Of a DNA stretch of 64,000 nucleotides, positions 12,401 through 52,202 are shown piece after piece. The translations under genes were made by a program, and so were the position numbers. This DNA is from Zhongshania aliphaticivorans (GTDB lineage: Bacteria; Pseudomonadota; Gammaproteobacteria; Pseudomonadales; Spongiibacteraceae): NCBI RefSeq assembly GCF_001586255.1, contig NZ_CP014544.1:372001-436000 (forward strand). Direction: 5' to 3'. The stretch's first letter is position 1; each line of letters starts with the position of its first letter. Below the pieces are notes generated by a model. That model was not told where the DNA came from. It worked only from the letters and a program-made list of their open reading frames with translations, and searched no databases.

Positions 12401-12418
12401 ATTGAGTAAATAGTTAAT
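12401..12418. promoter_or_regulatory. Candidate regulon operator upstream of tetR paralogue 2
   Basis: ATTGAGTAAATAGTTAAT fits the 7-4-7 palindrome ATTGAYYnnnnRRTCAAT with three deviations. It sits 43 bases before the ATG of the second TetR gene, as expected for autoregulation. It is one of the weaker copies. Confidence 0.45.
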
Positions 12419-12460
12419 AAGAATGCTAAAATCCTTTTTTAAGAGTTATTGGTAGATAAA

Positions 12461-13108
12461 ATGGCAAAGAAAAAATTGGGAGAATTGGATTTAGCAAATG
12501 GAAGCGACGTAAAAAGGGTTCGCGCGGTGAGGATGTCACCCGAGCGCCGTCGCGTACAGTTATTGGAATGCGCAATCCTGGTTTTTGCTGAAAAAGGTAT
12601 TCTTAATGCCACTCACGCGGATGTAGCCAAATTCGCAGCCGTTGCCAACCCAACTGTATTTCACTATTTCCCCACAATAGAAAAACTGCAAGAAGAAGTG
12701 ATTCGCGAAGTGCGGCGCTTTCTTCTCGATGGATTCGTATTGTCCCGCGCTCATCTTAACGCTTCTGCCTCGGAGCGCATTGAAGATATGTTGTCGTCAT
12801 TTGCGCAATCAATTTCATCCAACCCTGAATACATTACTATTTGGTTGGAGTGGAGTGGTTTAACGCGGGGCTTCCTCTGGGATATGTACCTTGAGTTTTA
12901 TCGCGATACGGTGAAGGCGCTTAGAAGTTTGATTTTGGAGGGCAGGAAAGATAATTCAATTTCTGAAAGAATTGATGCCAGTGACGGCGCCCGGGTTGTT
13001 TTGAGTATGGCTCACGCAATTGCACATATGCATTTTTCAGGCAGCTCTGCAAAGACTATGAAGAAGACTGTGCATTCTCTCGTTTCTATTTATATTGCGC
13101 CTGAGTAA
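12461..13108 (+). CDS. TetR-family transcriptional regulator (paralogue 2)
   Basis: 215 residues from the ATG at 12461; a TTG four codons upstream is an alternative start. The HTH is at about 30-75 (ATHADVAKFAAVANPTVFHYF). It shares with paralogue 1 the segments MSPE-R, NATHAD, IFHYFP/VFHYFP, the WLEWSG-TRG motif, LEFY, and the end (MAHAIAHMHFSGSS against MAHTIAHMRFAGSS), so the pair is a tandem duplication. A weak regulon palindrome lies just upstream. Confidence 0.9.
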   Translation: MAKKKLGELDLANGSDVKRVRAVRMSPERRRVQLLECAILVFAEKGILNATHADVAKFAAVANPTVFHYFPTIEKLQEEVIREVRRFLLDGFVLSRAHLNASASERIEDMLSSFAQSISSNPEYITIWLEWSGLTRGFLWDMYLEFYRDTVKALRSLILEGRKDNSISERIDASDGARVVLSMAHAIAHMHFSGSSAKTMKKTVHSLVSIYIAPE

Positions 13109-13399
13109 GTTCCACTGTTAGGTCACAATTCGCAATCTATTTTTCTTTAATTTTCCGCGACGGCTATCATCAGGTTGGTATTCGTATGCGGCATTTAATG
13201 CTTGCTGTTACGAATTTTTAGTGTATCGGTGCGCAAGCTGTCGCTGAGAGCTTGGTTAAATACGCTCATGTAGGTTCGCTGATTGCCAAGGTCTTTGTTG
13301 TAGTCTACGGGTTTTCTCGTCCGCGCGAGGCTTTTCAGTGTTGCTTTTGAATGGATCTGGCTAAGTGTTGATGGCTTGGTGATATGAATGATATTTGTG
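13109..13399. other. Intergenic region without recognised feature
   Basis: About 290 bases between the second TetR gene and the convergent secreted-protein gene. I see no ORF with a start site, RNA gene or repeat here. Confidence 0.6.
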
Positions 13400-13422
13400 C
13401 TGGCTCAGCATCGCTGAGCCAG
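13400..13422 (-). terminator. Perfect hairpin downstream of the secreted-protein gene
   Basis: CTGGCTCAGC (13400-13409) and GCTGAGCCAG (13413-13422) form a ten-base-pair stem with a three-base loop, 14 bases after the stop of the minus-strand gene. There is no T-tract, so it may be a terminator or an mRNA 3' stabiliser. Confidence 0.45.
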
Positions 13423-13436
13423 CCAGTTTGGCAAGC

Positions 13437-13928: not shown

Positions 13929-13973
13929 TACAAGCACTCCAAAAAAATCAATACTCCCGTAGTGTGCACCTAT

Positions 13974-13991
13974 AATGACCTGTAAGTCAAT
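13974..13991. promoter_or_regulatory. Regulon operator upstream of the secreted-protein gene
   Basis: AATGACCTGTAAGTCAAT, a 7-4-7 palindrome with one deviation in the left half. On the minus strand it reads TTGACT followed ten bases later by TATAGG, so a bound repressor would cover the promoter. Confidence 0.6.
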
Positions 13992-14232: not shown

Positions 14233-14250
14233 ATTGACCGTAGCATCAAT
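14233..14250. promoter_or_regulatory. Regulon operator upstream of the TonB receptor
   Basis: ATTGACCGTAGCATCAAT, with both outer ATTGA/TCAAT arms exact. It lies 119 bases before the receptor ATG. The divergent region 13929-14368 otherwise holds AT-rich sequence with no gene. Confidence 0.6.
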
Positions 14251-14368: not shown

Positions 14369-16670
14369 ATGAAAAAAAGTCATCTGCTAACGTCATTTTC
14401 GACGTTACTCATCATGTTGGGGGGGGGCTGCATATGCGCAAGACGATGCCAGTCCCACTATTGAAAGGAAAAAAAATAATCGCCAGCTAGAAGAGGTTGT
14501 CGTTACGGCGCGTAAGCAAACAGAGAATATTCAAGATATTTCAGCTAGCTTGACTTCGCATACTGGCGCCGCCCTTGATGCAATGGGTGTTGCAGACATA
14601 AAAGATCTGATGAATGTAACGCCAGCCTTAACTGTAACCGAAATGGCTGCATATAGTTTGATATTTATTCGGGGCGTCGGCTCTGATTCATTTCAAGGGC
14701 CAATTGACTCGAGTGTTGCAACCTATATTGATGGCTTATACATAACGCTGACATCTAACCAGGCGCAATCCTTGGGTAATGTGCAGTCAGTTACTGTGTT
14801 AAAAGGGCCGCAAGGTACGCTGTATGGCCGTAACGCAGTTGGCGGTGCCATTGTTGTGGAAACAAAAAAGCCAAGTTTTGAAGATGTTCAGGCGAATGTT
14901 ACTGTTGAGGGGGGGAATTATAATTTATTGAAAGGTAAGGTGCACTTATCCGGACCAGTTGGCGATAATCTTGCCTTGGGAGTTTCTGGTTTATATACCA
15001 ATCGCGAAACGTATATGATTTATACGCCGGACCCAAGCCAAAAGCACTTAGATTATGACGATCGTGGCGTAAAAGTTGAGGCGCGCTGGGCGCCCACCGA
15101 TTGGCTGGAAATTAATGCTAGCCATTACAATATTCGTCACAGCTCTGGTGATTCTGCACCCCTGACCAACGCGGAGCCTTCTCCGTTGTTCTCGTCAGTA
15201 TTGACCGCTAATCCGGAGCCATGGGAAACAGGTGTAGGAACTGAAGTTTACACCGAGATGGAGTCGCAGGCGTCAAAATTAGAATTTGATATTTCAAATC
15301 AATACTTCAATACCAAGGCAATTTTCGGTCACTCTGAAGCAACCAGTGGTGTTTACTGGGACTACGATATGGCATACGAGAAGCTGCTTATCATCGAGGC
15401 TATTCCAAATACCGCTGAAACCGACTCAATTGATATCGTGTTCACTAGCTCGGATTGGGGGCCATCTTGGTTGAGCTGGATTGGTGGTATTTATGTTGAA
15501 GATACCTACAAAGATCAAACCACGCCAATATATGTAGACGGGCTTACGCTTGGTCAGCAGCTGGCTGGACTTAACCCTAATTTACTTAACAATCTTGTTA
15601 AGTCGCTAGGTTTGAGCGCGCTGGGTATTAACGGTTTGCCAGCTAATCCAATTCACCTGCTTTTATACGGCGGTGTAGAAACCGATGCTAAGGCGGCGTT
15701 TGCTGAATTTGACATAGATATTACCGATTATCTGTCAGTAAAATTTGGTGGTCGCTATTCTGATGAGACCCGCGTTATTCCCATCTCTACGGTAGATGCT
15801 CGGGTGCAGAATTTGCCAATATTAGGAACAACTGACTGGGTGAGGGCTTTTGACTACGATGAAGACAGTGCGACGTGGACGGATTTTACGCCGAGCTTCG
15901 GTATAGATTTCGATTTATCTGAAGATGCTATGGTTTATTACAGCTATTCGACCGCATTTAAGAGTGGTAACTTTAATGGTCTCAATATTAATGCTCCTCC
16001 ATCGAGAATCGAGCCTGAAGAAGCTGAGTCTCATGAGATTGGTATTAAATCTGATTGGCTAGACGGAAGTCTTCGCATCAACGCGGCAGCGTTTACAACT
16101 ACCGTCGTCAACGGACACGCGCAAATATTGTCCTTAACCAGTGGTGGTGTAACTCGTCTTGAAAATGCCGCCGAATATACGATTGATGGTGCTGAGCTTG
16201 AATTGACCTACAACACGCCCATTGATGGCTTAGTAGTTAATTTCTCAGGAACGTGGCTGGATGGCGCCTACGACGAGTACGAGTGTACTAACTTCGATCC
16301 CGAAACCGGTTTAGAAGGCACTTACGATTGCTCCGGTAACACGACTATTCGTACCGCTGATTTTGCGGGTGTTGTAGATGTTAGTTATCGCTTTGATATA
16401 GGGCGTTTTGAAAACGAGCTGGGTCTGGGTGCTTACTACAACTCTGGGTTCTGGTTCGATCCCACCAATAATGTGCCAGAAGAAGAATACACAAAAGTTA
16501 ATGCAAGATTTAGTATTAGAGATTCAAAGACTAGTATGAAGCTTTACGGTTGGGGGTCGAATCTTACTAATGAGGTCAGTCATATGCAGCGTTTTCGTCA
16601 GGACTTTGGTGTGGGTGAGTCTTACGCCAGGCCGCGGATGTACGGTGTAGGTCTCGAATGGGAATATTAA
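14369..16670 (+). CDS. TonB-dependent outer-membrane receptor, frameshifted in the signal peptide
   Basis: Predicted uptake receptor for a large or hydrophobic substrate, about 766 residues when restored. The ATG at 14369 (GAGGG site upstream) begins a signal peptide. A G9 tract at 14419-14427 then puts translation out of frame and a stop follows near residue 32. With eight G the frame continues through AAYAQDD and the TonB box (LEEVVVTARK) into the plug and the 22-strand barrel, which is open from 14428 to 16670. The plug has the usual GPQGTLYGRNAVGGAI. An unusual hydrophobic insert is near GLTLGQQLAGLNPNL. It may be phase-variable, a recent pseudogene, or a sequencing error. An initiation at 14550 would lack any export signal. 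Confidence 0.85.
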
Positions 16671-17063: not shown

Positions 17064-17081
17064 ATTGACTCCAAGATCAAT
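17064..17081. promoter_or_regulatory. Regulon operator upstream of the PF10118 hydrolase
   Basis: ATTGACTCCAAGATCAAT, overlapping a TATAAT at 17081-17086. It lies 57 bases before the ATG of the hydrolase gene, so it covers the promoter. Confidence 0.65.
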
Positions 17082-19092: not shown

Positions 19093-19110
19093 ATTGATTA
19101 TATAGTCAAT
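19093..19110. promoter_or_regulatory. Regulon operator A between the SnoaL-like and membrane-protein genes
   Basis: ATTGATTATATAGTCAAT, a 7-4-7 palindrome with one mismatch between the arms. It is 84 bases before the SnoaL-like start and 51 bp from operator B, close to five helical turns. Confidence 0.65.
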
Positions 19111-19143: not shown

Positions 19144-19161
19144 ATTGACTTTTGAGTCAAT
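19144..19161. promoter_or_regulatory. Regulon operator B (perfect palindrome), promoter of the membrane-protein gene
   Basis: ATTGACTTTTGAGTCAAT is the best copy of the motif: the seven-base arms are perfect. TTGACT (19145-19150) can serve as -35 with TATATT (19167-19172) as -10 at 16 bp spacing, so a bound repressor would occlude the promoter of the gene at 19206. Confidence 0.72.
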
Positions 19162-21830: not shown

Positions 21831-21848
21831 ATTGACTTTAAAGTCATT
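21831..21848. promoter_or_regulatory. Regulon operator upstream of the lipid operon
   Basis: ATTGACTTTAAAGTCATT, with a perfect 14-bp core TGACTTTAAAGTCA. It lies 79 bases before the GTG start of the PlsB-like gene. A TATA element follows at once, as at the other copies. Confidence 0.65.
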
Positions 21849-28916: not shown

Positions 28917-30380
28917 TTAGCCCATCACTTTCTCTAGTAGCTTAAGCATTTTGGCAGTGTGTGGCGCTTTGAAATACGGGGTCAGGCTCACCAAGCCCTG
29001 TTTGTAATAGGCCTTGGCATGGCTGAGCTGGCGGAAGCCGTCAAAGCCATGGTAGCTACCCATACCACTGTGACCAACCCCACCTAGTGGCATGGTGTCT
29101 TGTAAAACATGGGCGGCAATATCATTTACGACCATACCGCCGGAGGTGGTATTTAATTTGATTTGCTGAATTTCAGCCTTGGACGAGCCAAAGTAATAGA
29201 GCGCCAAGGGCCGTTCACCGGCGTTAATTTCTGTGCAAACACTGTCGATATTGTCGTAGGTTTTTACCGCCATAGCTGGCCCAAAAATTTCGTCGCACAT
29301 GATTTTGGCGTCGCTGTCAGGGTTTATTACCAAAGTGGGGGCGAGTTTATTGTGGCTTTCTGGTTGCGCCAAGCCAATATCGTCGGCGAGGGCTTCAACG
29401 CGATAGCCTCGGTCATGGGCCTCTTGTATATAAGACGTAATTCGGCCTCGGTGGCGGGCGTTGATTACCGAGCCGTAGTCGGGATTGTCATTCAGTGTGC
29501 CAAAATTGCTTTCCACAAATTGGCGGGCAAACTGAATAAATTCTTCGAGCTGTGATGCTTTAACATAGGTGTAGTCCGGCGCCAAACAGATCTGACCGGC
29601 ATTCATCGTTTTAAAGGTAAATGTGCGCTCAACAGCGGCTTTTAAGTCGGCGCCTTCGCCAATTATCACTGGGCATTTGCCGCCTAGTTCAAGCGTTAGT
29701 GGTACGAGATTTTCAGCGGCGGCGCGCATTACGTGTTTGGCCACCGACGGCGCACCAGTGAACACTAAATGATCGAAAGCCTGACCGCAAAATGCGCTGG
29801 CCACGTCTGGGCCGCCGTTAACTACTGCAATTTCTTCGGTCGCAAAGGTGTTGTGAATAAGCTCGGCCATTAATGCTGAGGTTTCAGGTGTTAATTCCGA
29901 GGGTTTAATCATGGCGCGGTTACCCGCCGAGATCGCATTGCCCAGCGGCGAAAAGGTAAGTTGTACAGGGAAGTTCCACGGCGACACTATGCCGACCACG
30001 CCCAGTGGCTGGTAAAATACATGGGCGTCGGCGCCGAGTAAATTGAGGGGGAACTTTGCGCCTCGGGATTCTTTTTTCATCCAGCTAGCGGTGTTTTTGC
30101 GCAAGTATTTTAAGCTTTCAATGGGCACCAGAACGTCAAATACCACACTGTCAAAATGGGAGCGAGCGCGGTAATCGGCACGCAGCGCATCTGAGAATCG
30201 TTGTTTGTTCACGCGCAGTAAATCAATAAGGCGATCAAGCCGGTCGATGCGAGTTTTAAGTGTGGGGTAGCCGTCATCGATAAAGCTTTGGCGTTGAGTG
30301 TTAAGTGTTGCCGCAATGCTTTGGGCATTGGCGTCGGCATCAAATAGTGGGGTAATCACCCGATTTTCGGTATTGCTCAT
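28917..30380 (-). CDS. Aldehyde dehydrogenase, coniferyl-aldehyde-dehydrogenase type
   Basis: 487 residues, NAD(P)-dependent aldehyde dehydrogenase. Nucleotide site MKKESRGAK... and PWNFPVQLT near 140, FTGAPSVAK near 215, general base Glu in LTLELGGKCP near 238, and catalytic Cys in NAGQICLAPDY near 270. The C-terminal SGMGSYHGFDGFRQLSH is typical of coniferyl-aldehyde and fatty-aldehyde forms. It is the first gene of the operon with epoxide hydrolase and has a regulon operator 149 bases upstream. Confidence 0.92.
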   Translation of the reverse strand: MSNTENRVITPLFDADANAQSIAATLNTQRQSFIDDGYPTLKTRIDRLDRLIDLLRVNKQRFSDALRADYRARSHFDSVVFDVLVPIESLKYLRKNTASWMKKESRGAKFPLNLLGADAHVFYQPLGVVGIVSPWNFPVQLTFSPLGNAISAGNRAMIKPSELTPETSALMAELIHNTFATEEIAVVNGGPDVASAFCGQAFDHLVFTGAPSVAKHVMRAAAENLVPLTLELGGKCPVIIGEGADLKAAVERTFTFKTMNAGQICLAPDYTYVKASQLEEFIQFARQFVESNFGTLNDNPDYGSVINARHRGRITSYIQEAHDRGYRVEALADDIGLAQPESHNKLAPTLVINPDSDAKIMCDEIFGPAMAVKTYDNIDSVCTEINAGERPLALYYFGSSKAEIQQIKLNTTSGGMVVNDIAAHVLQDTMPLGGVGHSGMGSYHGFDGFRQLSHAKAYYKQGLVSLTPYFKAPHTAKMLKLLEKVMG

Positions 30381-35154: not shown

Positions 35155-35326
35155 TAGTCTGGACTCAGGCCGTGATGAATGTTAATTTTTATCACTACTG
35201 AGTCATGTTCAATTGCGGGCCAAGAAAAACCATGGTCAAAACTACGGCTATATCGATGGTTTTTTGTAGCAGCTGAGTTTGGCGCGTGCTGTTTAGACGG
35301 CAGTATTGAAATAATGATAAAAGAGG

Positions 35327-38280: not shown

Positions 38281-38958
38281 TTACTTGATCATATTGTTAA
38301 GTTTAACGATTAACTGATTCACTTCCCCGGTGACGTCGTCGGGGCGATTCACAATGCCGGTGTAGACGAGCTGGGTTAGTTGGTCGGCGATTTTGTCGAT
38401 GTCGGCACTGCGGCCGCCAGAAACGATGTCCCAGAGGTAGTGTTCTATACCGCCAAATACCACATTGCGAACTAGTACCGGGGAAGCAAATTCCGCAATT
38501 TCGCCGCTGTCTTGGCCTTCGCGAATGATGCTGATAACGATATGGCTGTAGCGCCGGTTAAGGTCGTGAACTTTTTCGAGTAATTCGTTTTGGCTGCTGC
38601 GGGATTCGTTAAGTATTACGGTGCACAAACTGGCGTTGTCATGAAGAATCGACATATGGGTGTAGATTACGTAGCGAATTTTATTGCGCACGCCATCTAT
38701 GCCTGCCACGCCTTCTTCCATGGTGCCAGTAATGTCAGAGTAAAACTCTTCGATGACTTTGGTCATTAGCGCGCGTTTAGTTTTAAAATAGTGTAGCACG
38801 GTGCCCTCTACAACGCCGACGCATTTTGCAATATCGGCGATGGTAGAGGATTCGTAGCCCTGAGATTCAAAAACTGATCTGGCGGCCTGTACAATTTCGA
38901 GTTGACGTTGCTCGGGCGAAAGACGGGTTCTCGCGCTGTTACTTTTGATCTTTGCCAA
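38281..38958 (-). CDS. TetR-family transcriptional regulator (operon-internal)
   Basis: 225 residues. The HTH is at about 35-65 (STIADIAKCVGVVEGTVLHYFKTKRAL) and a helical ligand-binding domain follows. It has a basic N-terminal tail. It is 23 bases after the crotonase gene and upstream of GST on the same strand, so its expression would depend on the SDR promoter that carries the 40663 palindrome. It is a second candidate, beside the tandem pair at 11.7-13.1 kb, for the protein that binds the window-wide motif. Confidence 0.9.
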   Translation of the reverse strand: MAKIKSNSARTRLSPEQRQLEIVQAARSVFESQGYESSTIADIAKCVGVVEGTVLHYFKTKRALMTKVIEEFYSDITGTMEEGVAGIDGVRNKIRYVIYTHMSILHDNASLCTVILNESRSSQNELLEKVHDLNRRYSHIVISIIREGQDSGEIAEFASPVLVRNVVFGGIEHYLWDIVSGGRSADIDKIADQLTQLVYTGIVNRPDDVTGEVNQLIVKLNNMIK

Positions 38959-39786: not shown

Positions 39787-40590
39787 TTATCGGGTGGGGC
39801 TGAGGCAGTCGAGGCTGGCGTCGCCGATTTGGTAGCCGCCGTCAACGTCGAGAACAGTGCCGTTAACATAGGCGCCCAGTGGCGAGCTGAGGTAAATCGC
39901 AGCGGCGCCAATGTCATCTACAGAGCCAAGGCGGCGAATGGGTAGGGCGTCGATCATTTTCTGGCCGCCGTCAGGGTCGGTGGCAAATAGGCGCTTTAGG
40001 CCTTCGGTGTCGCCGGTGAGTCCAGGTGCAATGCCGTTCACCCTTATGCCAGAAGGACCCCATTCCATGGCCAAGGTTTTTAGCAGTGCGTTGACGCCGG
40101 CTTTTGCAGCGCAAACATGAGCTTGCAGCGGCGTGGCGTTAACTGCCTGGGGCGCAGTAATGGCAATGAAGGACGCGGTGGTCTTTTTGCAGTAGTCGAA
40201 ACCAGCCCGGAATACGTGGAATGTGCCCATTAAGTCGATATCAACTACGGTTTTAAAACCCTTGGGGCTAATGCTAACGGCGGGGGCGAAGAAGTTGCCG
40301 GCAGCGCCAGCGATAACAATATCGAGCTGACCTAGCTGTTCGCTAGTCTGCTTCATGGTGTCTTCAATGGCGTCGTAGTCGCGAACATCGGCGCTAAAGC
40401 AGAGCACCTTTACGGTGGGCGCTGCGCTGCGAATGGTGTCTGCGGCGCGCTCGGCTTTTTCTAGGTCGCGGCCAATAATGGCGATGTTGGCGCCATGGCG
40501 CGCCAGCGTCAGGGCGATTCCCAAGTTAATGCCGCTTGTGCCGCCGGAAATATAGGCTGTTTTGCCCAGTAATATATCCTCTTTAAACAC
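39787..40590 (-). CDS. Short-chain dehydrogenase, 2,4-dienoyl-CoA reductase-like
   Basis: 267 residues. The Rossmann motif is GGTSGINLGIA near 17-27 and the NAG-like motif reads AGAAGNF near 95. The usual Tyr-x3-Lys reads VCAAK, with the Lys kept and no Tyr, as in 2,4-dienoyl-CoA reductases of the DECR class. It would reduce a dienoyl-CoA with NADPH, allowing beta-oxidation of unsaturated or branched chains. It is the first gene of its operon, with two or three palindromes in the divergent region before it. Confidence 0.86.
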   Translation of the reverse strand: MFKEDILLGKTAYISGGTSGINLGIALTLARHGANIAIIGRDLEKAERAADTIRSAAPTVKVLCFSADVRDYDAIEDTMKQTSEQLGQLDIVIAGAAGNFFAPAVSISPKGFKTVVDIDLMGTFHVFRAGFDYCKKTTASFIAITAPQAVNATPLQAHVCAAKAGVNALLKTLAMEWGPSGIRVNGIAPGLTGDTEGLKRLFATDPDGGQKMIDALPIRRLGSVDDIGAAAIYLSSPLGAYVNGTVLDVDGGYQIGDASLDCLSPTR

Positions 40591-40638: not shown

Positions 40639-40655
40639 GTTGAGCTAAACTCAAT
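40639..40655. promoter_or_regulatory. Variant palindrome upstream of the SDR gene
   Basis: GTTGAGCTAAACTCAAT, with the same outer arms but a 17-bp length. It may be a degraded copy of the operator, 49 bases before the SDR ATG. Confidence 0.3.
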
Positions 40656-40662
40656 TAAACTT

Positions 40663-40680
40663 ATTGACCAAAAGATCACT
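40663..40680. promoter_or_regulatory. Regulon operator near the SDR promoter
   Basis: ATTGACCAAAAGATCACT, with one base off in the right arm. It is 73 bases before the SDR start, so it would control the SDR-crotonase-TetR-GST operon. Confidence 0.5.
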
Positions 40681-40801: not shown

Positions 40802-40819
40802 GTTGATTTATGTGTCAAT
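40802..40819. promoter_or_regulatory. Regulon operator upstream of the carboxylase operon
   Basis: GTTGATTTATGTGTCAAT, 126 bases before the biotin carboxylase ATG in the 354-bp divergent region. The rest of this region (40591-40944) shows no gene. Confidence 0.6.
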
Positions 40820-40944: not shown

Positions 40945-42432
40945 ATGTCTGCTAAGCGACAAATAAACAAAATATTGGTGGCCAATCGCGGCGAGATTGC
41001 AGTGCGAATTTTGCGCAGCATTAAAGAAATGGGCTTGAAATCAGCACTGCTGTTTCACCGTGTTGAGGCCGATAGCCCGTCGCTAAAAATGGCCGACGAA
41101 ATTTATGAGGTGACCGGCGATACCCCGGTAGCCGCATTCTTAGATATTGAGAATATTGTCAAAATTTGTCGCGAGAACGACATTGATGCGGTGCATCCCG
41201 GTTACGGTTTCTTGGCGGAGAACGCAAAATTTGTTGAGGCCCTAGATGAGGCGGGCATCCAGTTTATTGGCCCTCGCCCTGAAGTTATGACCTTAATGGG
41301 CGATAAAATCGGCTCGCGCAATTTTGTGCAGGAGCGCGGATTTCCGGTGGCGCCGTCGGTGTTAGATACGGGTGATGCCGAGCAATTTATTGCCCGGATT
41401 ATGGAAATTGGTTTTCCCTTGGTTATTAAGGCCTCTGCGGGTGGCGGCGGTAAGGGCATGCAGATTGTGCGCGACGCCAATGGCCTAAGCGATGTGGTGG
41501 CGACCGCCAAAGTTGAGGCTCAGCGTTATTTTGGCGATCCGCGTATTTATGCCGAGCGCTATATAGAAAACCCTCGTCATATCGAGGTTCAGGTGCTCGG
41601 TGACCAGCACGGAAACTGCGTGCACCTGTGGGAGCGTGAGTGCTCTATCCAGCGCCGCTTCCAAAAAGTCATTGAAGAAACGCCATCGCCCGCCTTGAAT
41701 CAAGAGCAGCGCCAGTCGATTTGTGATGTGGCCGTGGGTATTGCTCAGTCAGTTAACTACACCAGTGCTGGCACCATCGAATTTATTTACGCGCCAGACG
41801 GTGAGTTTTATTTCCTTGAAATGAATACCCGTATTCAGGTTGAGCACCCCATTACTGAGATGGTGACCGGGGTTGATTTGGTTGCAGAGCAAATTCGTGT
41901 GGCCATGGGCGAAAAGCTCAGCGTAGCGCAGGACGACATTGTGCAGCGCGGGCATGCGATTGAATGCCGTATCTGCGCAGAAATTCCCGATGATGATTTT
42001 GCGCCCTCGGCGGGTAAGGTGCTGATGCTTCGCCCTCCGGTTGGTGACGGCGTACGTTTTGACAGCGCTTGCTACGAAGGTCAAAAAGTCGGCACCGCCT
42101 TTGACTCGATGATTGCGAAGTTGGTTGTGCATGCAGAGGATCGCGATGCCGCTATTGCAAAATGTTTGGTGGCGCTGGATGAGTTTGTGTTACTTGGGGT
42201 GGAAGCCAATGCCGACTACGTAGCTCGGATCTTGCGACATCAAGCCTTTGGTGAAGGTAAAACCGATACCGGCTTTATTCGTCACCACGCCGACGACTTG
42301 CTGCCACTGGCAGTGAGTGAAGAGCTTAAAACAGCGCTAGTGGCCACTGCGGCCCTTAGTGATCGTCAGTTTGTGGCAATGATGGATGCGATTCCAAGTC
42401 CGTACCGTCTCATGAAAGAGTGGAGAAACTGA
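40945..42432 (+). CDS. Acyl-CoA carboxylase, biotin carboxylase subunit
   Basis: 495 residues. ATP-grasp carboxylase: N-terminal VANRGEIAVRILRS near 10-23, GYGFLAEN near 79, ATP loop KASAGGGGKGMQIV near 163-176, HIEVQVLGD near 213, and EMNTRIQVEHP near 292 with the catalytic Arg. It carboxylates biotin on the BCCP subunit made by the next gene. Unlike methylcrotonyl- or geranyl-CoA carboxylase alpha chains it has no fused biotin domain. It heads a five-gene operon (BC, BCCP, CT, ACAD, SDR). Confidence 0.93.
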   Translation: MSAKRQINKILVANRGEIAVRILRSIKEMGLKSALLFHRVEADSPSLKMADEIYEVTGDTPVAAFLDIENIVKICRENDIDAVHPGYGFLAENAKFVEALDEAGIQFIGPRPEVMTLMGDKIGSRNFVQERGFPVAPSVLDTGDAEQFIARIMEIGFPLVIKASAGGGGKGMQIVRDANGLSDVVATAKVEAQRYFGDPRIYAERYIENPRHIEVQVLGDQHGNCVHLWERECSIQRRFQKVIEETPSPALNQEQRQSICDVAVGIAQSVNYTSAGTIEFIYAPDGEFYFLEMNTRIQVEHPITEMVTGVDLVAEQIRVAMGEKLSVAQDDIVQRGHAIECRICAEIPDDDFAPSAGKVLMLRPPVGDGVRFDSACYEGQKVGTAFDSMIAKLVVHAEDRDAAIAKCLVALDEFVLLGVEANADYVARILRHQAFGEGKTDTGFIRHHADDLLPLAVSEELKTALVATAALSDRQFVAMMDAIPSPYRLMKEWRN

Positions 42433-42433
42433 G

Positions 42434-42922
42434 GTGAGATATACCTTTAAATTAGCCGATGAAATGGTTGAAGTGGCGCCTCGGAGTCTTGCCAATGAGT
42501 TGGTGCTGGCTATTGGTGACCGGGACTGCAAGTTGGTGTTTGACCATGACCGTAGCGGTGCATGTCAGTTAAGTCTTGATGGCCGCAATTACCAAAGCTG
42601 GGTTGCCCGCGACGGCGACGATATTTTTCTTAAAATTGAAGGCCGCTATTTTAAAGTGACGGCTTTTGATCCCCGTTCCTTGGTGACGGCTGCTGCAGAG
42701 GGTGAGGGCAGTATTCGTGCGCCAATGCCGGGTGTGGTTGTCGAAGTGCTGGTGGCCGAGGGCGACGAGGTTGTTGCCGGCGACAAGCTGATGACAATAG
42801 AAAGTATGAAGTTGCAATCTACGGTGAAGGCAGCGCGCGACGGTGTGGTAAAGCGCATCAGCGTCACAGCGGGATCCGAATTTAATAAAGACGATGTACT
42901 TGTGGAAATCGACGGCGAATAA
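42434..42922 (+). CDS. Biotin carboxyl carrier subunit of acyl-CoA carboxylase
   Basis: 162 residues from a GTG one base after the BC stop. The C-terminal biotinyl-lipoyl domain (about 95-160) has APMPGVV followed by ESMKL, where the Lys is the biotinylation site (usually E-A-M-K-M). The N-terminal half (about 1-90) is beta-rich like the BT domain that joins BCCP to the BC chain in fused alpha subunits, which suggests gene fission of a methylcrotonyl-type alpha chain. Confidence 0.9.
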   Translation: MRYTFKLADEMVEVAPRSLANELVLAIGDRDCKLVFDHDRSGACQLSLDGRNYQSWVARDGDDIFLKIEGRYFKVTAFDPRSLVTAAAEGEGSIRAPMPGVVVEVLVAEGDEVVAGDKLMTIESMKLQSTVKAARDGVVKRISVTAGSEFNKDDVLVEIDGE

Positions 42923-42961
42923 CGTCGATCAAAATCAGATTAATACGGCTGGACTATCGCC

Positions 42962-44569
42962 ATGCGCAGAATTCAAAGTCGGATCAATACTAATTCATCC
43001 GAATATCAAGAAAACCTTAAGGCAAACGAAGCGCGTTTGTCAGAATTTCACCGGCGCCAGGACGCGGCTCGACACAGCCGTCCCCAGCGTGATTTGGATC
43101 GTCTGGAGCGGCAAGGCAAAATGCTACCGCGTCAGCGATTAGAGCTATTATTAGATCCAGGCACGCCGTTTCTCGAGTTGTCGTCGCTGGCTGCCGGTGA
43201 ACTTTATGATGGCGATGCGCCTTCGGCAGGCTGCATTACCGGTATTGGTATTGTGTCTGGTCGCGAAGTGGTTATTCACGCCAACGACAGCACCGTAAAA
43301 GGTGGCGCTTGGTATCCGATGACGATTAAGAAAATCGTTCGTGCCATGGACATTGCCATTGAAAATCGCCTGCCGGTGATTCACCTTTGTGATAGCGCGG
43401 GTGGCTTTTTGCCTTTGCAGTCTGAGTTGTTTGGCGACAAATATTTTGCGGGCCGTATTTTCCGCAATCAGGCGATACTGTCTAAAATGGGTGTTAAGCA
43501 GCTGGCATTGGTGTTTGGTCACTGCACTGCTGGTGGCGCTTACGTGCCGGCAATGAGCGACTACAATGTTATCGTGCGCGGCACAGGTGCAGTGTTTCTC
43601 GGTGGACCGCCGCTGGTAAAAGCGGCAACGGGTGAGGAAGTGAGTGTTGAAGATCTGGGTGGTGCAGATATGCACACCTCGGTGTCGGGCACCTGTGACT
43701 ACCCAGCAGAAAGCGAAGCCGAGGCCATTGCCATAGGTCGAGAAATTGTTGCCCAGTGGAGCACGCCTAAAAAATGGGATGCCCAGCAACAAGAACCTGA
43801 AGAACCCTATTACGACCCGAAAGAGCTGTACGGCATTATCCCCGCCAACATCAAAACTCAGTTCGATATGATGGAAGTCATTGCTCGTATTGTTGACGGC
43901 AGTCGCTTCCACGAATATCAGCCCAATTATGGCAAGACTATGCTCTGTGGCTACGCTCACATCTGGGGCTATAAAGTTGGCATCGTTGCTAATAACGGCA
44001 TTCTGTTTAACGACAGCTCGAAGAAAGCCTCGCACTTTATCCAGCTCTGTAATCAGAACAAAACGCCGCTGGTGTTTTTACAAAACATTACGGGCTATAT
44101 GGTGGGTAAAGCCTACGAGCGCGAGGGTATAACAAAAGACGGCGCCAAGATGATCATGGCCCAAGCTGGTGTTGATGTGCCCAAATTTACGGTGATGACC
44201 AACGGCTCCTACGGTGCGGGTAATTACGGTATGTGTGGTCGCGCCTATGATGCACGCTTTTTATTCAGCTGGCCAAATAGCGAAATTTCGGTGATGGGTG
44301 CCGAGCAGGCCGCAAAAACACTGACGACGATTAAAACCAATCAATTACTGCGCGAAGGCAAAGAGCTGGCTAGCGATGAGAAAGAGCGCATTGAAGAAGA
44401 AATCATTGCCGATTACCACCACAAGAGCAGTGCGTACTACACCTCTTCGTTAATGTGGGACGACGGTATTCTCGACCCGGCAGATACGCGCAATGCACTG
44501 GGTATGGCCATTGCCACCTCATTGAACGCCCCGATAGACGATCCACATTACGGTGTGTTCCGCGTATAG
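42962..44569 (+). CDS. Acyl-CoA carboxylase, carboxyltransferase subunit
   Basis: 535 residues, the size of methylcrotonyl- or geranyl-CoA carboxylase beta subunits (LiuB/AtuC). Crotonase-like N- and C-domains: CTAGGAYVPAMSDYNVIVRG near 185-205, GPPLVKAATGEEV near 215-227, and the C-terminal GNYGMCGRAYDARF near 420 and QAAKTL. It transfers carboxyl from biotin to the gamma-carbon of a beta-methyl enoyl-CoA if the family assignment is right; propionyl-CoA-type activity cannot be excluded. It lies 39 bases after the BCCP gene. Confidence 0.92.
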   Translation: MRRIQSRINTNSSEYQENLKANEARLSEFHRRQDAARHSRPQRDLDRLERQGKMLPRQRLELLLDPGTPFLELSSLAAGELYDGDAPSAGCITGIGIVSGREVVIHANDSTVKGGAWYPMTIKKIVRAMDIAIENRLPVIHLCDSAGGFLPLQSELFGDKYFAGRIFRNQAILSKMGVKQLALVFGHCTAGGAYVPAMSDYNVIVRGTGAVFLGGPPLVKAATGEEVSVEDLGGADMHTSVSGTCDYPAESEAEAIAIGREIVAQWSTPKKWDAQQQEPEEPYYDPKELYGIIPANIKTQFDMMEVIARIVDGSRFHEYQPNYGKTMLCGYAHIWGYKVGIVANNGILFNDSSKKASHFIQLCNQNKTPLVFLQNITGYMVGKAYEREGITKDGAKMIMAQAGVDVPKFTVMTNGSYGAGNYGMCGRAYDARFLFSWPNSEISVMGAEQAAKTLTTIKTNQLLREGKELASDEKERIEEEIIADYHHKSSAYYTSSLMWDDGILDPADTRNALGMAIATSLNAPIDDPHYGVFRV

Positions 44570-44602
44570 CGTGGGCCACCAACTGAATTTGTAGAGGTTA
44601 TT

Positions 44603-45775
44603 ATGACTAGTGCTTTTGAACTTGCCGACGAGCATCGCGAACTGCTTGATCACTGTGACCGCATCGGTCGTGATGTGCTTTATCCATTGGCGCAAAAGAT
44701 GGATGACGATGAGTGGTGGCCGGAAAATTTGTTTCCTCAGTTAGGTGAGCTGGGTCTGCTGGGCGTGACGGTTGACCCCAAATACGGCGGCGCCGGTTTA
44801 GACTTTATGTCTTGTGGCATGATCGCTCAAGCCTTCTCACGCTGGAACCATGCGGCGGGTTTGGCGTGGGTGGTGCACGACAATTTGTTTGCCAATAATG
44901 TTTATGCAAATGGCAGTGAGTATTTAAAAGAGAAGTATTTGCCTGATGTTTGCGCCGGTAAAAAAGTGGGTGCCCTAGGCTTAACTGAGCCGGGTGCAGG
45001 TTCTGATGCATTAGGTTCTATGCGTACCACCGCAGTGAAAGATGGCGATCACTATGTGCTCAACGGCACCAAGATTTATATTACTAACGGGCCAATTGCG
45101 GACGTGGTTTTGGTTTACGCTAAAACTAATAAAAATGCCGGCTCTAAAGGCATTACTGCATTCCTACTAGAAACCACCACACCAGGCTTTAAGGTTGCAC
45201 AGAAGCTGATCAAAATGGGGTTTAGGGGTAGTCAGACCGCCGAGTTAGTTTTTGAAGATTGCCGTGTACCGGTAGAAAATATCGTTGGTGAATTGGATCA
45301 AGGCCACAAAGTCGTCATGAGTGGCTTGGACTTAGAGCGCGCTATGATCAATCCTATCTGTGTTGGTATTGCCGAGCGCGCCTTGGAGTTGTCTATTGAA
45401 TACGCGAAAACTCGCGAGCAATTTGGTAAGCCCATCGCCAGCTTCCAAATGGTGCAGTCGCGTCTGGCGGATATGTATACGTTGATTGAAAGTATGAAGT
45501 TGATGACTTACAAGGCGCTGAGTGCATGTCAGTCTGTAGGTCATGGCGAAGCCGGTCGCGGCGAGATTCACAAGCTCACCGCAGCGGCGATTTTGTACGC
45601 GGCCAATAGTTTGAACACCGTGTTGGATAATGGCGTGCAAATTCACGGCGGCAGCGGTTATATTTGGGAGTCAGAAATGAACCGCTTGTTCCGCGCTACC
45701 AAGTTACTTGAAATTGGCGCGGGTACGACCGAGGTTCGCAAATTGATAATTGCCGGTGAGTTACTCGCCAAATAA
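44603..45775 (+). CDS. Acyl-CoA dehydrogenase, isovaleryl/citronellyl-CoA type
   Basis: 390 residues, FAD enzyme. The signature LTEPGAGSDALG is at 127-138 and KIYITNG at 157-163. The catalytic base is placed as in isovaleryl-CoA dehydrogenase: E245 in GLDLERAMI, while the usual C-terminal Glu position reads GAGTTE. That placement fits short branched or citronellyl-type substrates. It sits 33 bases after the carboxyltransferase gene; this matches the IVD/MCC logic of leucine degradation or the AtuD/AtuC logic of citronellol degradation. Confidence 0.93.
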   Translation: MTSAFELADEHRELLDHCDRIGRDVLYPLAQKMDDDEWWPENLFPQLGELGLLGVTVDPKYGGAGLDFMSCGMIAQAFSRWNHAAGLAWVVHDNLFANNVYANGSEYLKEKYLPDVCAGKKVGALGLTEPGAGSDALGSMRTTAVKDGDHYVLNGTKIYITNGPIADVVLVYAKTNKNAGSKGITAFLLETTTPGFKVAQKLIKMGFRGSQTAELVFEDCRVPVENIVGELDQGHKVVMSGLDLERAMINPICVGIAERALELSIEYAKTREQFGKPIASFQMVQSRLADMYTLIESMKLMTYKALSACQSVGHGEAGRGEIHKLTAAAILYAANSLNTVLDNGVQIHGGSGYIWESEMNRLFRATKLLEIGAGTTEVRKLIIAGELLAK

Positions 45776-45790
45776 GGGTTTAAACATAAT

Positions 45791-46639
45791 ATGACGGCTG
45801 CCAATACGGTGATGACCGACCAGGATTTCGCCGAGGCAAAAACCTTGTTTGGCGAAGGCAGCTTTAGCGATAAGGTGGTATTGGTCAGCGGTGGCGGCAG
45901 TGGTATTGGCAAAGCGACTGCATGGCTGCTGGCTAGGCTGGGCGCCAAAGTGATTATTATTGGCCGCACCGAGCCTAAATTGGCAGCTTGTTGCCAAGCA
46001 ATTACCGCCGCTGGCTATCGCGCTGAGTATCATGTTCAAGACATTCGAGACTACGACGGTATTGCCGCCATGTTTGCCAAGGTCTTTGACAAATATGGTC
46101 GTCTCGATGCCTTAATTAATAACGCTGGCGGTCAGTTTCCTCAGCCTGCTATTGAGTTTTCCAAGAACGGTTTTGATGCCGTTGTTGGCAATAATTTGAA
46201 CGGCAGCTGGTATATGATGCAGCAGGCCGCGAGGCAGTGGCGGGAGCGTAAACAGCGCGCCGTGATTGTGAACGTGGTGGCGGTGGTGTCGCGGGGTATG
46301 GCGGGTGGTGCTCACACCTGTGCAGCCCGCGCTGGTGTTATCCACTTATCAAAAACCGTCGCGGTAGAGTGGGCGGAATACGGTATTCGCGTTAACTGCG
46401 TTGCCCCTGGCGTTATCTTCTCCGAAGGCATGGGGGTTTATTCAGACGAAGCCCGCAGCGCCTTTGATCGCTCCAATCCTATGAAACGCTTCGGTACGCC
46501 CTGGGAGATTGCTCAGTCCTGTGCTTTTCTAGCCTCTGAGGCGGCGGGCTTTGTCACTGGTGAGGTGCTTACCGTCGATGGTGGCGGTAAGCTGTGGGGT
46601 GACTTGTGGATGGCGGGTAAGCCAGATTATTTTAGTTAG
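45791..46639 (+). CDS. Short-chain dehydrogenase, DECR-like with altered catalytic site
   Basis: 282 residues. The cofactor motif is GGGSGIGKA near 31-40 and NNAG is near 110. The active-site Tyr-x3-Lys reads TCAAR, so both the Tyr and the Lys are missing. The end keeps GEVLTVDGGGKLWGDLW like 2,4-dienoyl-CoA reductase-type SDRs and AtuG. It may be a dienoyl-CoA reductase with a changed proton relay, or a structural partner. It is the last gene of the carboxylase operon. Confidence 0.86.
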   Translation: MTAANTVMTDQDFAEAKTLFGEGSFSDKVVLVSGGGSGIGKATAWLLARLGAKVIIIGRTEPKLAACCQAITAAGYRAEYHVQDIRDYDGIAAMFAKVFDKYGRLDALINNAGGQFPQPAIEFSKNGFDAVVGNNLNGSWYMMQQAARQWRERKQRAVIVNVVAVVSRGMAGGAHTCAARAGVIHLSKTVAVEWAEYGIRVNCVAPGVIFSEGMGVYSDEARSAFDRSNPMKRFGTPWEIAQSCAFLASEAAGFVTGEVLTVDGGGKLWGDLWMAGKPDYFS

Positions 46640-49622: not shown

Positions 49623-49967
49623 TTACTTGGTTTGCCCTGTAAGTAGCGCGTCGGGAATATCCATTTCCATGTGCAGCAATGCTAGGCCGTGAACTTTACC
49701 CTGGGCGTCCATGATGAGGGTTTCAGTGCCGCCGCCGCCTAGTGAATCTTCCAAAATAAAGTTAAGGGCTTGCAGATTTGGCAGTTCGTAACGCTGAATA
49801 TCACCGAAGCAAATTTCAGAGAAATGCTGCTTAACCCGTGCAATGCTCAGATTCTCTACCAGGTACTGATAAATCTCTGGGGTATTCGCTTTAATGCCGA
49901 CGTTGCTGCCGTCGCCTTTGTCGCCGGAACGGGCAATGGCAACGTCCATTAATTTCACTTTAGCCAT
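49623..49967 (-). CDS. AtuA C-terminal ferredoxin-fold domain protein
   Basis: 114 residues. It corresponds to the C-terminal ferredoxin-like domain of AtuA (PF23544-type): LMDVAIARSGDKGDGSNVGI near 6-25, GGGGTETLIMDAQGKVHG near 77-94. In Pseudomonas AtuA both domains are on one chain; here the second is a separate gene that starts one base after the stop of the first. Together with the 456-residue protein upstream it makes a split AtuA. Function in acyclic terpene degradation is known genetically, but its exact reaction is not. Confidence 0.85.
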   Translation of the reverse strand: MAKVKLMDVAIARSGDKGDGSNVGIKANTPEIYQYLVENLSIARVKQHFSEICFGDIQRYELPNLQALNFILEDSLGGGGTETLIMDAQGKVHGLALLHMEMDIPDALLTGQTK

Positions 49968-49968
49968 G

Positions 49969-51339
49969 TTATACCTCTTCTACCAATACGGTGGTGGTGA
50001 CTTTGTTTTTGTCGATCAGCGCGGGCCAGTATCCAACGATCTCAGCGGGGCGGGGGCGTCCAGCGGCGAAGCCGGTAACACCAACAGGGCCGCTGGTGAT
50101 AAGCGGCGCTAATTCGCGGCCGAGAATGTTCAAAAGGGCTTTGTCGTCGCTCTTGGCGCCAACGCGAAGCATGACTTCTGCGGGTTCTTCTGGCTGTTTA
50201 ACAATGCCCTTGTAGCAAACATTGGTGCCGAATAGTTCAACAAAGCGGTCTTGCTCAGGAATTTCTTTGCCGTACATGCCAACCCGTTCAAATAGAATTT
50301 CAGCGCCGAGCTGGGCCTTCTCAATAGCGTCTGGGCCGGTGTAGGTGAGTTGGCCAACAATTTTGTAGCCATTGGCGTAAGACATAGAGACTTTATAGGT
50401 AGGCGTGGGCGCCGAACCTTTAATGCCGCTAACCCGTACCCGGTCTTTGCCGTCTTCAGCGAGCCGGATTGTGGTGAAGTCTGAGGTGCAGTCGGGGCCG
50501 AGGTAATTTTTTGGATCGCCCAATTCATACAGTAGCTGCGAGGTAACCGTGTCGACGTTAACTAAGCCGCCGGTGCCATCGTGTTTGGTGATAACAAAGC
50601 TACCATCGGCGCTGGCTTCGGCAATGGGGTAGCCAATACGGGCGAAGTTAGGGACATTGCGCCAGTCATTGTAGTTGCCGCCCGTACATTGGGGGCCGCA
50701 CTCAAGAATATGGCCCATCACGGTGCCTGCAGCGAGCTTGTCGTAGTCTTCCATTGACCAGCCAAATTCATAGATGAGCGGTGCTAATACCAATGACGGG
50801 TCAGTGGCGCGGCCGGTAATAACGATGTCGGCGCCTTGGGCAAGGGCGTCGGCAATTGGTTTGGCGCCGATATAGACGTTGGCGCTGGATAGGCGGCTGA
50901 GTACGGTGTCTAGGGCGTCGCCATTGTCGAGGTTTTTAAAGCTCTCGCCAGATTTGATCAGCTCAGGCAATTGCTCAAGAATGTCGTCACCTTCAACGAT
51001 GCCGACTTTAACGCCGGTGAGGCCGAGTTCTTTTACCACCGCTTGAATTGCGTCGCGGCAGCCTTTGGGGTTTACGCCGCCGGCATTGGCAATCACCTTA
51101 ATGCCTTTTTCTTTGCACGTTGGTAGAATTTCGCGGAGCATGTCCACGAAGTCTGTCGCGTAGCCCGCGTCTGGGTTGCGCTCTTTTTGACGCTGCATAA
51201 TGCTCATGGTGACTTCGGCAAGGTAGTCCAGGGTCAGGTAATTCAGCGGACCTTCTTTCACGAGCCGCAGTGGACCGAGGAGGCTGTCGCCCCAAAAACC
51301 TTGGCCATTGGCAATTAATATTTTCTTGTCTGTGCTCAT
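49969..51339 (-). CDS. AtuA-family protein (PF07451, DUF1446)
   Basis: 456 residues. The N-terminal signature ILIANGQGFWGDSLLGP near 7-23, NAGGVNPKGCRDA near 84, and ITGRATDPSLVLAPLIYEFG near 176 match the acyclic terpene utilisation protein AtuA. The citronellol/geraniol pathway needs it. It lies 29 bases after the crotonase gene and one base before its own C-terminal domain gene. The chain here lacks the fused ferredoxin-like C-terminus. Confidence 0.88.
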   Translation of the reverse strand: MSTDKKILIANGQGFWGDSLLGPLRLVKEGPLNYLTLDYLAEVTMSIMQRQKERNPDAGYATDFVDMLREILPTCKEKGIKVIANAGGVNPKGCRDAIQAVVKELGLTGVKVGIVEGDDILEQLPELIKSGESFKNLDNGDALDTVLSRLSSANVYIGAKPIADALAQGADIVITGRATDPSLVLAPLIYEFGWSMEDYDKLAAGTVMGHILECGPQCTGGNYNDWRNVPNFARIGYPIAEASADGSFVITKHDGTGGLVNVDTVTSQLLYELGDPKNYLGPDCTSDFTTIRLAEDGKDRVRVSGIKGSAPTPTYKVSMSYANGYKIVGQLTYTGPDAIEKAQLGAEILFERVGMYGKEIPEQDRFVELFGTNVCYKGIVKQPEEPAEVMLRVGAKSDDKALLNILGRELAPLITSGPVGVTGFAAGRPRPAEIVGYWPALIDKNKVTTTVLVEEV

Positions 51340-51368
51340 AAACGCTACCTACTAGGTTGATATTTAGC

Positions 51369-52157
51369 TTATTGAATCCAATTGGGTTTACGCTTCTCTA
51401 AAAAGGCACTAAGTCCTTCTTTGCCTTCGCTAGAATCTCGGGTCAGGGCGATTCGGCGACTGCTTTCTTCGATAAGTTCGGCGTCAATGGGTCGGTTGCT
51501 TAGGTCGAGGACCAACTTCTTGGCCTCGCTTATGGCGCGGGGGCCATTTTTTAACAAGGCTTTGATAAGTGCTGCAATAGCGTGGTCTGCGTCTTCTTCT
51601 GTTGCGCAGCATTCGCTGATAAGACCCAGTCCCAAGGCTTTTTCAGCGGAAATTACCTCGGCAGTAGTGAAGTAGCGCCGAGAGGCGCGCTGGCCAATGG
51701 CGGCGATAACATAGGGGCTGATGGTTGCGGGGATCATGCCGACTTTTACTTCGCTTAAACAAAAATTGGCGTTTGTGGTGGCAACGGCTATATCGCAGCA
51801 GGCGACAAGGCCGACACCGCCGCCATAAGCCGCGCCCTGTACCCGTGCAATGGTGGGCATGGGTAGGGTGTTTAGCTTATTTAGCATGGCGGCAATCTTT
51901 TTAGAGTCCGCGAGGTTTTCCTCGTAGCTATAGCCTGCCATTTGCTTCATCCAGTTCATGTCGCCGCCAGCGCAAAAGCTGCTGCCTTTGGCTTGCAAAA
52001 GTAGGGCGCGGACAGACTTGTCGTTGGCGGCACGAGCAAACGCATCTTGAAGTAGTTGGATTACTTCATTGTTAAAGGCGTTATGGGTGTTTGGCCGATT
52101 CATTGTGACCGTGGCAAGCCCATTCTCCGCTACGCTGTACAGTATGTCGGCGTTCAT
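51369..52157 (-). CDS. Enoyl-CoA hydratase, AtuE/LiuC-type
   Basis: 262 residues from the ATG at 52157; a start 13 codons earlier would overlap the operator. The oxyanion loops are SSFCAGGDMNWM near 58-69 and GAAYGGGVGLVACCD near 94-108. Catalytic Glu is in FCLSEVKVGMIPATISPYV near 119-137, the LiuC/AtuE signature of methylglutaconyl- or isohexenylglutaconyl-CoA hydratases. It would act after carboxylation of a beta-methyl enoyl-CoA. It heads the operon with the split AtuA genes and carries a regulon operator at its promoter. HMG-CoA lyase is not in the window. Confidence 0.9.
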   Translation of the reverse strand: MNADILYSVAENGLATVTMNRPNTHNAFNNEVIQLLQDAFARAANDKSVRALLLQAKGSSFCAGGDMNWMKQMAGYSYEENLADSKKIAAMLNKLNTLPMPTIARVQGAAYGGGVGLVACCDIAVATTNANFCLSEVKVGMIPATISPYVIAAIGQRASRRYFTTAEVISAEKALGLGLISECCATEEDADHAIAALIKALLKNGPRAISEAKKLVLDLSNRPIDAELIEESSRRIALTRDSSEGKEGLSAFLEKRKPNWIQ

Positions 52158-52184
52158 TCGGCTGATTTCTCTCTTGTTATCTCT

Positions 52185-52202
52185 ATTGATTTGCATGTCA
52201 AT
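52185..52202. promoter_or_regulatory. Regulon operator upstream of the hydratase-AtuA operon
   Basis: ATTGATTTGCATGTCAAT, 28 bases before the chosen ATG of the enoyl-CoA hydratase. It may also affect the divergent outer-membrane gene at 52536. Region 52203-52535 shows no other gene. Confidence 0.6.

Follow-up and report, generated by a model that had tools for sequence, protein, structure and literature searches.

A LuxR/HapR-like TetR pair and a Vibrio-type palindrome as a candidate local switch of a catabolic gene cluster in Zhongshania aliphaticivorans

Within the TetR family, the Vibrio regulators LuxR, HapR, SmcR and OpaR are associated with a 20-bp master quorum-sensing regulator (MQSR) box, given as TATTGATAAA-TTTATCAATA in PMC3323551. 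The discussions of PMC2628434 and PMC5790914 do not settle which natural ligand fills the LuxR/HapR pocket or how the pocket evolved. A LuxR relative that responds to a ligand was wished for in 2008. Here we describe a 64,000-nucleotide stretch of the Zhongshania aliphaticivorans genome (contig NZ_CP014544.1, positions 372,001 to 436,000; hereafter the window, with positions counted from its first letter) in which an 18-bp palindrome recurs across a catabolic gene cluster that includes two LuxR/HapR-like TetR genes, TetR A and TetR B, and a third TetR gene, TetR C. The window consensus of the palindrome is TATTGACTTTAAAGTCAATA; because eight bases separate its ATTGA and TCAAT ends, we call it the spacing-8 palindrome.

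We favour, with a probability of about 0.72, the reading that this palindrome, in the form TATTGAYYNNNNRRTCAATA, is the operator of the TetR A/B pair, which would repress the cluster until a pathway metabolite binds. We infer that dimers of TetR A and TetR B would occupy about nine promoter regions and keep off the uptake, activation and breakdown of a hydrophobic compound together with storage-lipid synthesis; a metabolite of the pathway entering the hydrophobic pocket of the proteins would then release the cluster. Established directly were the sites, their conservation at orthologous promoters, the relationship of the two proteins to LuxR/HapR, the resemblance of the operator to the Vibrio box, and the presence of another operator by which TetR C can be set apart.

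The palindrome and its conservation before orthologous genes

The first-pass annotation of the window listed twelve palindromes read by eye, and all twelve were present: three were exact (17064, 19093 and 19144), seven had one mismatch and two had two mismatches (12401 and 40802). With up to two mismatches allowed, the window held 15 matches, these twelve plus 8230, 56896 and 61280, against a shuffle mean of 2.26 and a largest shuffle count of 8. A weight matrix built on the twelve sites ranked exactly those twelve highest (18.9-26.9 bits), with the next place in the window at 14.5 bits; 12 sites reached at least 16 bits, compared with a mean of 0.11 and a largest count of 1 in 100 dinucleotide shuffles. 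This matrix test is partly circular, as the matrix was trained on the same sites, and related genomes provided the independent test. In the organism's own genome (4,204,359 bp), 10 of the 21 places with at most one mismatch fell within 38 kb (385974-424202). One site outside the window (879306, 21.5 bits, before a MarR gene) was set aside as being at chance level, with shuffles giving 0.02 sites of 20 bits per 64 kb, or about 1.3 per genome.

The window matrix was applied unchanged to loci of relatives, including Spongiibacter thalassae KMU-166 (Spongiibacteraceae; two loci) and a Zhongshania metagenome-assembled genome. We counted sites of at least 14 bits between -400 and +30 of gene starts, using the loci retrieved from as many as 12 genomes, among them the organism's own. 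Such a site preceded the aldehyde dehydrogenase (ALDH) gene in 8/8 genomes, the short-chain dehydrogenase/reductase gene SDR1 in 9/9, the TonB receptor in 7/7, SnoaL in 6/6, the PF10118 hydrolase in 6/7 and the secreted-protein gene in 3/3. Counts were lower or samples smaller for PlsB (2/2), the enoyl-CoA hydratase ECH2 (2/3), the HAD-acyltransferase (3/5), the AMP ligase (3/8), biotin carboxylase (BC; 4/10), the membrane protein (2/7), TetR B (2/10) and TetR A (1/10), the single A/B gene of genome G008 being counted in both TetR rows. Genes deeper in operons were hardly ever preceded by the palindrome. In these loci no such site lay before the wax ester synthase/diacylglycerol acyltransferase (WS/DGAT), lipase, epoxide hydrolase, AraC, thiolase, FadB, glutathione S-transferase (GST), ECH1, biotin carboxyl carrier protein (BCCP), acyl-CoA dehydrogenase, SDR2, AtuA, AtuA's ferredoxin-domain partner or TetR C genes, and the carboxyltransferase (CT) gene had one in 1/10, where the G019 entry is an artefact of a cut locus.

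Some loci (L089-L103) were chosen because they hold motif matches. When only relatives' loci fetched for, or lying next to, a TetR gene were counted, the site was found before ALDH in 5/5, SDR1 in 6/6, the TonB receptor in 3/3, SnoaL in 1/1 and PF10118 in 1/2. The SDR1/BC intergenic regions of nine genomes have mostly diverged, and the spacing-8 palindrome still aligned in 9/9. This conserved position at orthologues strongly supports the first-pass proposal of a multi-operon catabolic regulon. A chance origin of the palindromes was rejected by the shuffles and by the sites in relatives. The case for one site serving the second TetR gene is weak: site 12401 exists but is the weakest, and sites at the TetR genes are not conserved, so autoregulation of TetR B was dropped. 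Of the traits of a TetR-type local repressor, operators at the promoters of a neighbouring gene set were found in the window and in relatives, and conserved autoregulation was not.

Predicted spacing-8 operators, with genomes (own included) that have a site before the gene:
12401..12418, +, between TetR A and TetR B; weakest of the twelve (pattern and matrix match)
13974..13991, +, before the secreted-protein gene (13437, - strand); 3/3
14233..14250, +, before the TonB receptor; 7/7
17064..17081, +, before the PF10118 hydrolase; half-site is a -35-like TTGACT; 6/7
19093..19110, +, divergent SnoaL/membrane-protein promoter; SnoaL 6/6, membrane protein 2/7
19144..19161, +, divergent SnoaL/membrane-protein promoter region; half-site is a -35-like TTGACT
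21831..21848, +, before the PlsB-like/HAD-acyltransferase/WS-DGAT/lipase operon; PlsB 2/2, HAD-acyltransferase 3/5
30529..30546, +, before the ALDH-epoxide hydrolase operon (- strand); 8/8
35137..35154, +, before the acyl-CoA ligase, overlapping the fadB-like stop; 3/8
40663..40680, +, SDR1/BC divergent promoter; SDR1 9/9
40802..40819, +, SDR1/BC divergent promoter; the copy that aligns with other genomes
52185..52202, +, before the hydratase-AtuA operon (- strand) and an outer membrane protein gene; ECH2 2/3

Predicted targets:
14550..16670, +, TonB-dependent receptor (PF00593, PF07715)
28917..30380, -, ALDH (PF00171)
39787..40590, -, SDR1, first gene of the SDR1-ECH1-TetR C operon (PF13561)
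40945..46639, +, operon of biotin-dependent carboxylase (BC, BCCP, CT), acyl-CoA dehydrogenase and SDR2 (Pfam)
49623..52196, -, operon of hydratase, AtuA and AtuA-ferredoxin-domain genes (PF07287, PF23544, PF00378)

The overlap of site 35137 with a stop codon, also reported previously, is with that of the fadB-like open reading frame (ORF). Site 17064 ends 57 bp upstream of position 17139, where the PF10118 gene probably has its ATG. The earliest ATG at which the hydratase ORF could start is overlapped by site 52185; because the matching S. thalassae site holds no ATG there, the true start probably lies further inside the ORF. Upstream of the TonB receptor (about 14369-14550), an ATG with a signal-peptide-like start, judged by eye, is separated from the receptor ORF by a stretch of nine G and lies in another frame, possibly reflecting phase variation or a sequencing error.

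TetR A, TetR B and the Vibrio-type box

Candidate regulators of the spacing-8 operator:
11717..12355, +, TetR A, LuxR/HapR-like regulator (NCBIfam HapR 89 bits, cut-off 350; next family 47)
12461..13108, +, TetR B, LuxR/HapR-like paralogue (NCBIfam HapR 93 bits, cut-off 350; next family 45)

The two proteins are 52% identical. Against the PDB, TetR A matched OpaR, LuxR, SmcR and HapR best, from E 8e-24, with the first other family at 3e-8, and TetR B matched LuxR (7amn) at E 1.9e-24, with the first other family at 9e-7. All 18 PDB sequences found at E<=1e-15 with a TetR A/B profile were HapR, LuxR, SmcR or OpaR (E 1e-39 to 2e-44). An AlphaFold2 model of TetR B (pLDDT 89.8) gave HapR, LuxR or SmcR in all of the best 42 Foldseek rows, including the LuxR-DNA complexes 7amn and 7amt; an SmcR N55I structure was also among the structural matches. 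Both proteins scored far below the curated HapR cut-off, and together with residue 55, a changed linker arginine and a regulon that is mostly local in the own genome this places them outside Vibrio-type HapR by membership.

Residues of the putative ligand pocket also differ. In TetR A/B sequences of the genus, N133, which we take to be a pocket residue, is Y. Types A and B differ consistently at positions 75, 78 and 79 (F-M/L-I versus L-F-V), mostly among hydrophobic residues. Position H167 of SmcR, among the pocket residues named for QStatin in PMC5790914, is L, M or V. We suggest from these residues that the ligand may be lipid-like, perhaps one per paralogue. A51P was considered as a diagnostic and dropped, since P51 also occurs in 2/3 distant relatives.

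The first-pass annotation did not recognise the operator, which we could match to the Vibrio MQSR box by its outer bases and spacing. With the window matrix, the published box scored 19.9 bits and the qrgB site, a LuxR-repressed site according to PMC2628434, 20.4 bits, within the range of the window's own sites. Across 21 distinct known or predicted Vibrio sites the mean was 7.3 bits, against -16.4 for shuffled sites (standard deviation of set means 1.8). The pattern with Vibrio inner bases, TATTGATA-N4-TATCAATA, occurred 12, 16, 4, 3 and 4 times in five genomes with N55-type relatives (controls 2, 4, 1, 0 and 0), 4, 7 and 4 times in three H55 genomes (controls 1, 1 and 0), and 3 and 1 times in two genomes without A/B (controls 2 and 2). 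A preference of N55-type relatives for the Vibrio inner bases is suggestive only. LuxR/HapR-like genes also occur in two other families of the order (L114-L118); of these distant relatives, the three that were aligned all retain N55 together with a GIGRA linker (3/3). In the five genomes concerned, the Vibrio-type box is commoner than its reversed control.

A search of 390 genomes from the order found A/B-like genes (E<=1e-30) in 14, and 9 of these 14 belong to the own genus. Ten genomes with TetR A/B carried a mean of 9.0 motif matches compared with 2.2 in 11 genomes without (p=2.3e-4), while a reversed-pattern control gave 1.2 and 1.7 (p=0.73); exact matches numbered 30 in the former set and 4 in the latter, 3 of them in G006. 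In G008, 14 matches accompany just one A/B gene, which is of type B, so type B alone seems to suffice. Genomes G025, G028 and G029, where A/B were not found at E<=1e-30, held 2, 0 and 0 matches, and five genomes with distant HapR-like genes held 11, 16, 3, 5 and 5 (controls 3, 11, 2, 1 and 1). We demoted the whole-genome motif count from proof to support, since genomes of other families in which A/B were not found reach 8 matches (G023). In G006, the cluster copy at loci L090 and L091 is decaying, with its ligase, GST and hydratase matches split, yet spacing-8 sites persist there.

Mode of regulation, TetR C and rival explanations

Across 12300-32000, the four best sigma70-like sites all overlapped a palindrome, three of them on the strand of the downstream gene. 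The motif half TTGACT formed the -35-like hexamer of the pairs at 17065 and 19145, the palindrome at 14233 covered the -10-like element of a pair starting at 14218, and the fourth site (30520) was on the wrong strand for ALDH. This region held 23 promoter-like sites against a shuffle mean of 24.0. A -10 position shared between sites was weakly marked: 5/6 matches occurred at 17 nt in 8 of 176 orientations, compared with 0-5 at 15, 16 and 18-31 nt and 9 at 14 nt. The earlier suggestion that 19144 lies over a -35/-10 pair and that the mechanism is likely repression agrees with the overlaps in 12300-32000 but not with 35000-53000, where 0 of 15 promoter-like sites overlapped a palindrome. Collectively, repression by occlusion is mildly favoured at some promoters. 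TetR A/B may also activate, because LuxR itself both represses and activates, as described in PMC2628434.

Alignment of the SDR1/BC intergenic regions revealed a second palindrome, ATTGAG-N5-CTCAAT (spacing 7), that the first-pass annotation had missed. It lies at the carboxylase, ligase and hydratase promoters of the window and in seven loci of relatives (L094, L096, L106, L108 and L110-L112). Exact ATTGA-Nk-TCAAT matches in 25 loci chosen by TetR gene, with overlaps removed, numbered 15 at k=8, 15 at k=7 and 0-3 at any other k from 0 to 16; across all 40 relative loci they numbered 34, 21 and 0-5. Spacing-7 matches with at most one mismatch preceded SDR1 in 8/9 and BC in 9/10 genomes, largely the same sites as these divergent genes share one region, and matches with up to two mismatches preceded ECH2 in 3/3. 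Scattered matches at other genes mostly had two mismatches, those with one being at TetR B and BCCP in G005 and at TetR C in G015. Over whole genomes the pattern was noisy (6-18 matches in 12 genomes with TetR C, 2-10 in 9 without), and only its position at SDR1, BC and ECH2 was used as evidence. The spacing-7 palindrome is probably the operator of the FadR-like TetR C.

Features assigned to the spacing-7 operator:
38281..38958, -, TetR C, FadR-like, probable regulator (FadR 101 bits, cut-off 200; PDB Bacillus subtilis FadR E 2.9e-23)
40639..40655, +, predicted spacing-7 operator GTTGAGCTAAACTCAAT before SDR1-ECH1-TetR C (alignment of SDR1/BC regions, spacing-7 matches)
35197..35213, +, weak spacing-7 match before the acyl-CoA ligase (spacing-7 pattern)
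52237..52253, +, weak spacing-7 match before the hydratase-AtuA operon (match before ECH2 in 3/3 genomes)

The first-pass annotation had treated all three TetR proteins alike as candidates, and the evidence favours the two HapR-like ones and assigns the third another palindrome. It is unlikely that TetR C binds the spacing-8 palindrome while A/B do something else. TetR C does sit within a motif-controlled operon, and co-occurrence cannot separate it from A/B because it is present in 12 of 21 family genomes, namely all ten with A/B, G006, which retains sites, and G013. In G013, however, A/B were not found, and the 20-kb locus holds AtuA-carboxylase genes and TetR C; ECH2 is preceded there by a spacing-7 site, and none of the locus's spacing-8 matches reaches 12 bits. 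The helix core of TetR C, VVEGTVLHYF, is identical in this genome and in G000, the protein is closer to FadR than to LuxR, and SDR1, BC and ECH2 are preceded by a spacing-7 palindrome of their own; TetR C as owner of the spacing-8 sites is disfavoured by that operator and by G013. We consider it improbable as well that a true quorum-sensing cascade of the Vibrio kind acts through A/B, which would make the cluster density-regulated by both activation and repression. The relationship of protein and operator fits such a cascade, as does the dual activity of LuxR described in PMC2628434, but 10 of the 16 own-genome motif matches lie in one 38-kb catabolic cluster, with the other 6 scattered, and LuxR/HapR residues are changed in TetR A/B.

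Regulators of other families fared worse. AraC proteins usually bind direct repeats, and the element here is a palindrome; an AraC-type gene (30557-31588) and a LysR-type gene (46684-47577) do lie inside the cluster. Among the fetched loci, those of G008 showed no AraC orthologue although this genome has 14 matches, and a LysR orthologue was seen only in G000, whole genomes not having been searched for either. Ownership of the palindrome by one of these two is very unlikely. An FNR/ANR-type or another unseen global regulator is scarcely credible: the TTGA...TCAA halves resemble the FNR box (TTGAT-N4-ATCAA), but FNR needs TTGA-N6-TCAA spacing, and the 40 relative loci contained 0 exact copies of ATTGA-N6-TCAAT, compared with 34 of the N8 form. 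The FNR/ANR box was rejected by this spacing.

Returning to TetR A/B as owners of the spacing-8 palindrome, several observations weigh against this reading, in addition to the promoter-like sites of 35000-53000 and the co-occurrence of TetR C with the cluster. N55 probably matters for DNA binding, as the existence of an SmcR N55I structure also suggests, and the recognition helix (VSVATVFNYF with N55) carries H55 in 20/20 genus sequences; the glycine-linker arginine (HapR R37) is N in both window proteins and K in 6 of 18 other genus sequences. Only 1 of the 21 Vibrio sites (qrgB) reached 14 bits. G006 has three exact sites and TetR C, with no A/B found at E<=1e-20, and G013 has one spacing-8 match with one mismatch, below 12 bits, inside a TonB ORF. 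G021, G023 and G027, where A/B were not found at E<=1e-30, have 7, 8 and 7 one-mismatch matches (controls 1, 1 and 6). The type-B gene was not seen to have cluster genes as neighbours in five genomes (G005, G007, G008, G012 and G016), and the A/B genes' own promoters lack a conserved site. No spacing-8 site of at least 14 bits lay within 20 kb of a second S. thalassae TetR A homologue. The species compared are mostly of one genus, and the counts are not independent. The second S. thalassae homologue (L078/L031; 72%) lies beside unrelated genes.

Comparison with described systems

The cluster encodes AtuA, a biotin carboxylase with a separate carrier, an acyl-CoA dehydrogenase, hydratases, SDRs and a CoA ligase, along with storage-lipid genes. 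Because this content is Atu-like and includes storage-lipid genes, our best guess is a methyl-branched or isoprenoid substrate. Three spacing-8 sites of S. thalassae have as neighbours two genes of the soluble diiron (methane/phenol/alkene) hydroxylase family (L029 1758-4613), hinting at an oxidisable hydrocarbon. No PF02332 match was found in the own genome or in the control genomes, so this is not evidence of absence.

The acyclic terpene utilization (Atu) cluster of Pseudomonas, with its TetR repressor AtuR, has a similar gene list, sharing AtuA, biotin carboxylase, acyl-CoA dehydrogenase, hydratase, SDRs, CoA ligase and a TetR. Unlike that cluster, the window adds storage-lipid, epoxide hydrolase, ALDH and TonB genes, has the biotin carrier as its own gene, and carries a second regulator pair of LuxR/HapR type with an operator, the sequence of the AtuR operator lying outside this comparison. 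For TetR C the closest solved relative is B. subtilis FadR (YsiA), a likeness that concerns the spacing-7 operator and not the spacing-8 palindrome.

The operator, the regulator family and the type of pathway are each of a known kind. What appears new is their combination: a LuxR/HapR-type pair and its operator would switch a catabolic cluster locally, and an operator for another TetR, with a different spacing, is superimposed. Among the papers listed by literature searches on non-Vibrio relatives, whose hits were by title on Vibrio, and on Zhongshania/Spongiibacter, terpenes and TetR, none described this combination, judged by title or abstract start. The fuller picture remains tentative, at somewhat less than even odds: a LuxR-type protein and operator would serve as a small-molecule-released TetR repressor of lipid or isoprenoid catabolism, with N55H accompanying the inner-base change and the shorter palindrome of a second TetR layered on some promoters. 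TetR A/B would be candidates for the LuxR relative wished for in 2008. Since such a relative is tied to a particular catabolic cluster, the possible ligands narrow to a concrete few, the pathway intermediates. The proteins and their operators form a natural set for studying how recognition-helix change alters DNA preference, and the two operators (spacing 7 and 8) offer a handle on lipid or terpene degradation in marine Spongiibacteraceae.

Compared with Vibrio, TetR A/B belong to the same TetR-family branch as LuxR, HapR, SmcR and OpaR and share the conserved W-x-E-W stretch. They differ by H in place of N55, N or K in place of the linker arginine, Y in place of N133 and L, M or V in place of H167. 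The window consensus and the MQSR box share the 20-bp register, the spacing of 8 and the outer 12 bases, TATTGA-N8-TCAATA, whereas the inner eight bases differ at every position, with the middle four variable. Unlike those of Vibrio LuxR/HapR, the sites of the own genome are concentrated in one catabolic cluster.

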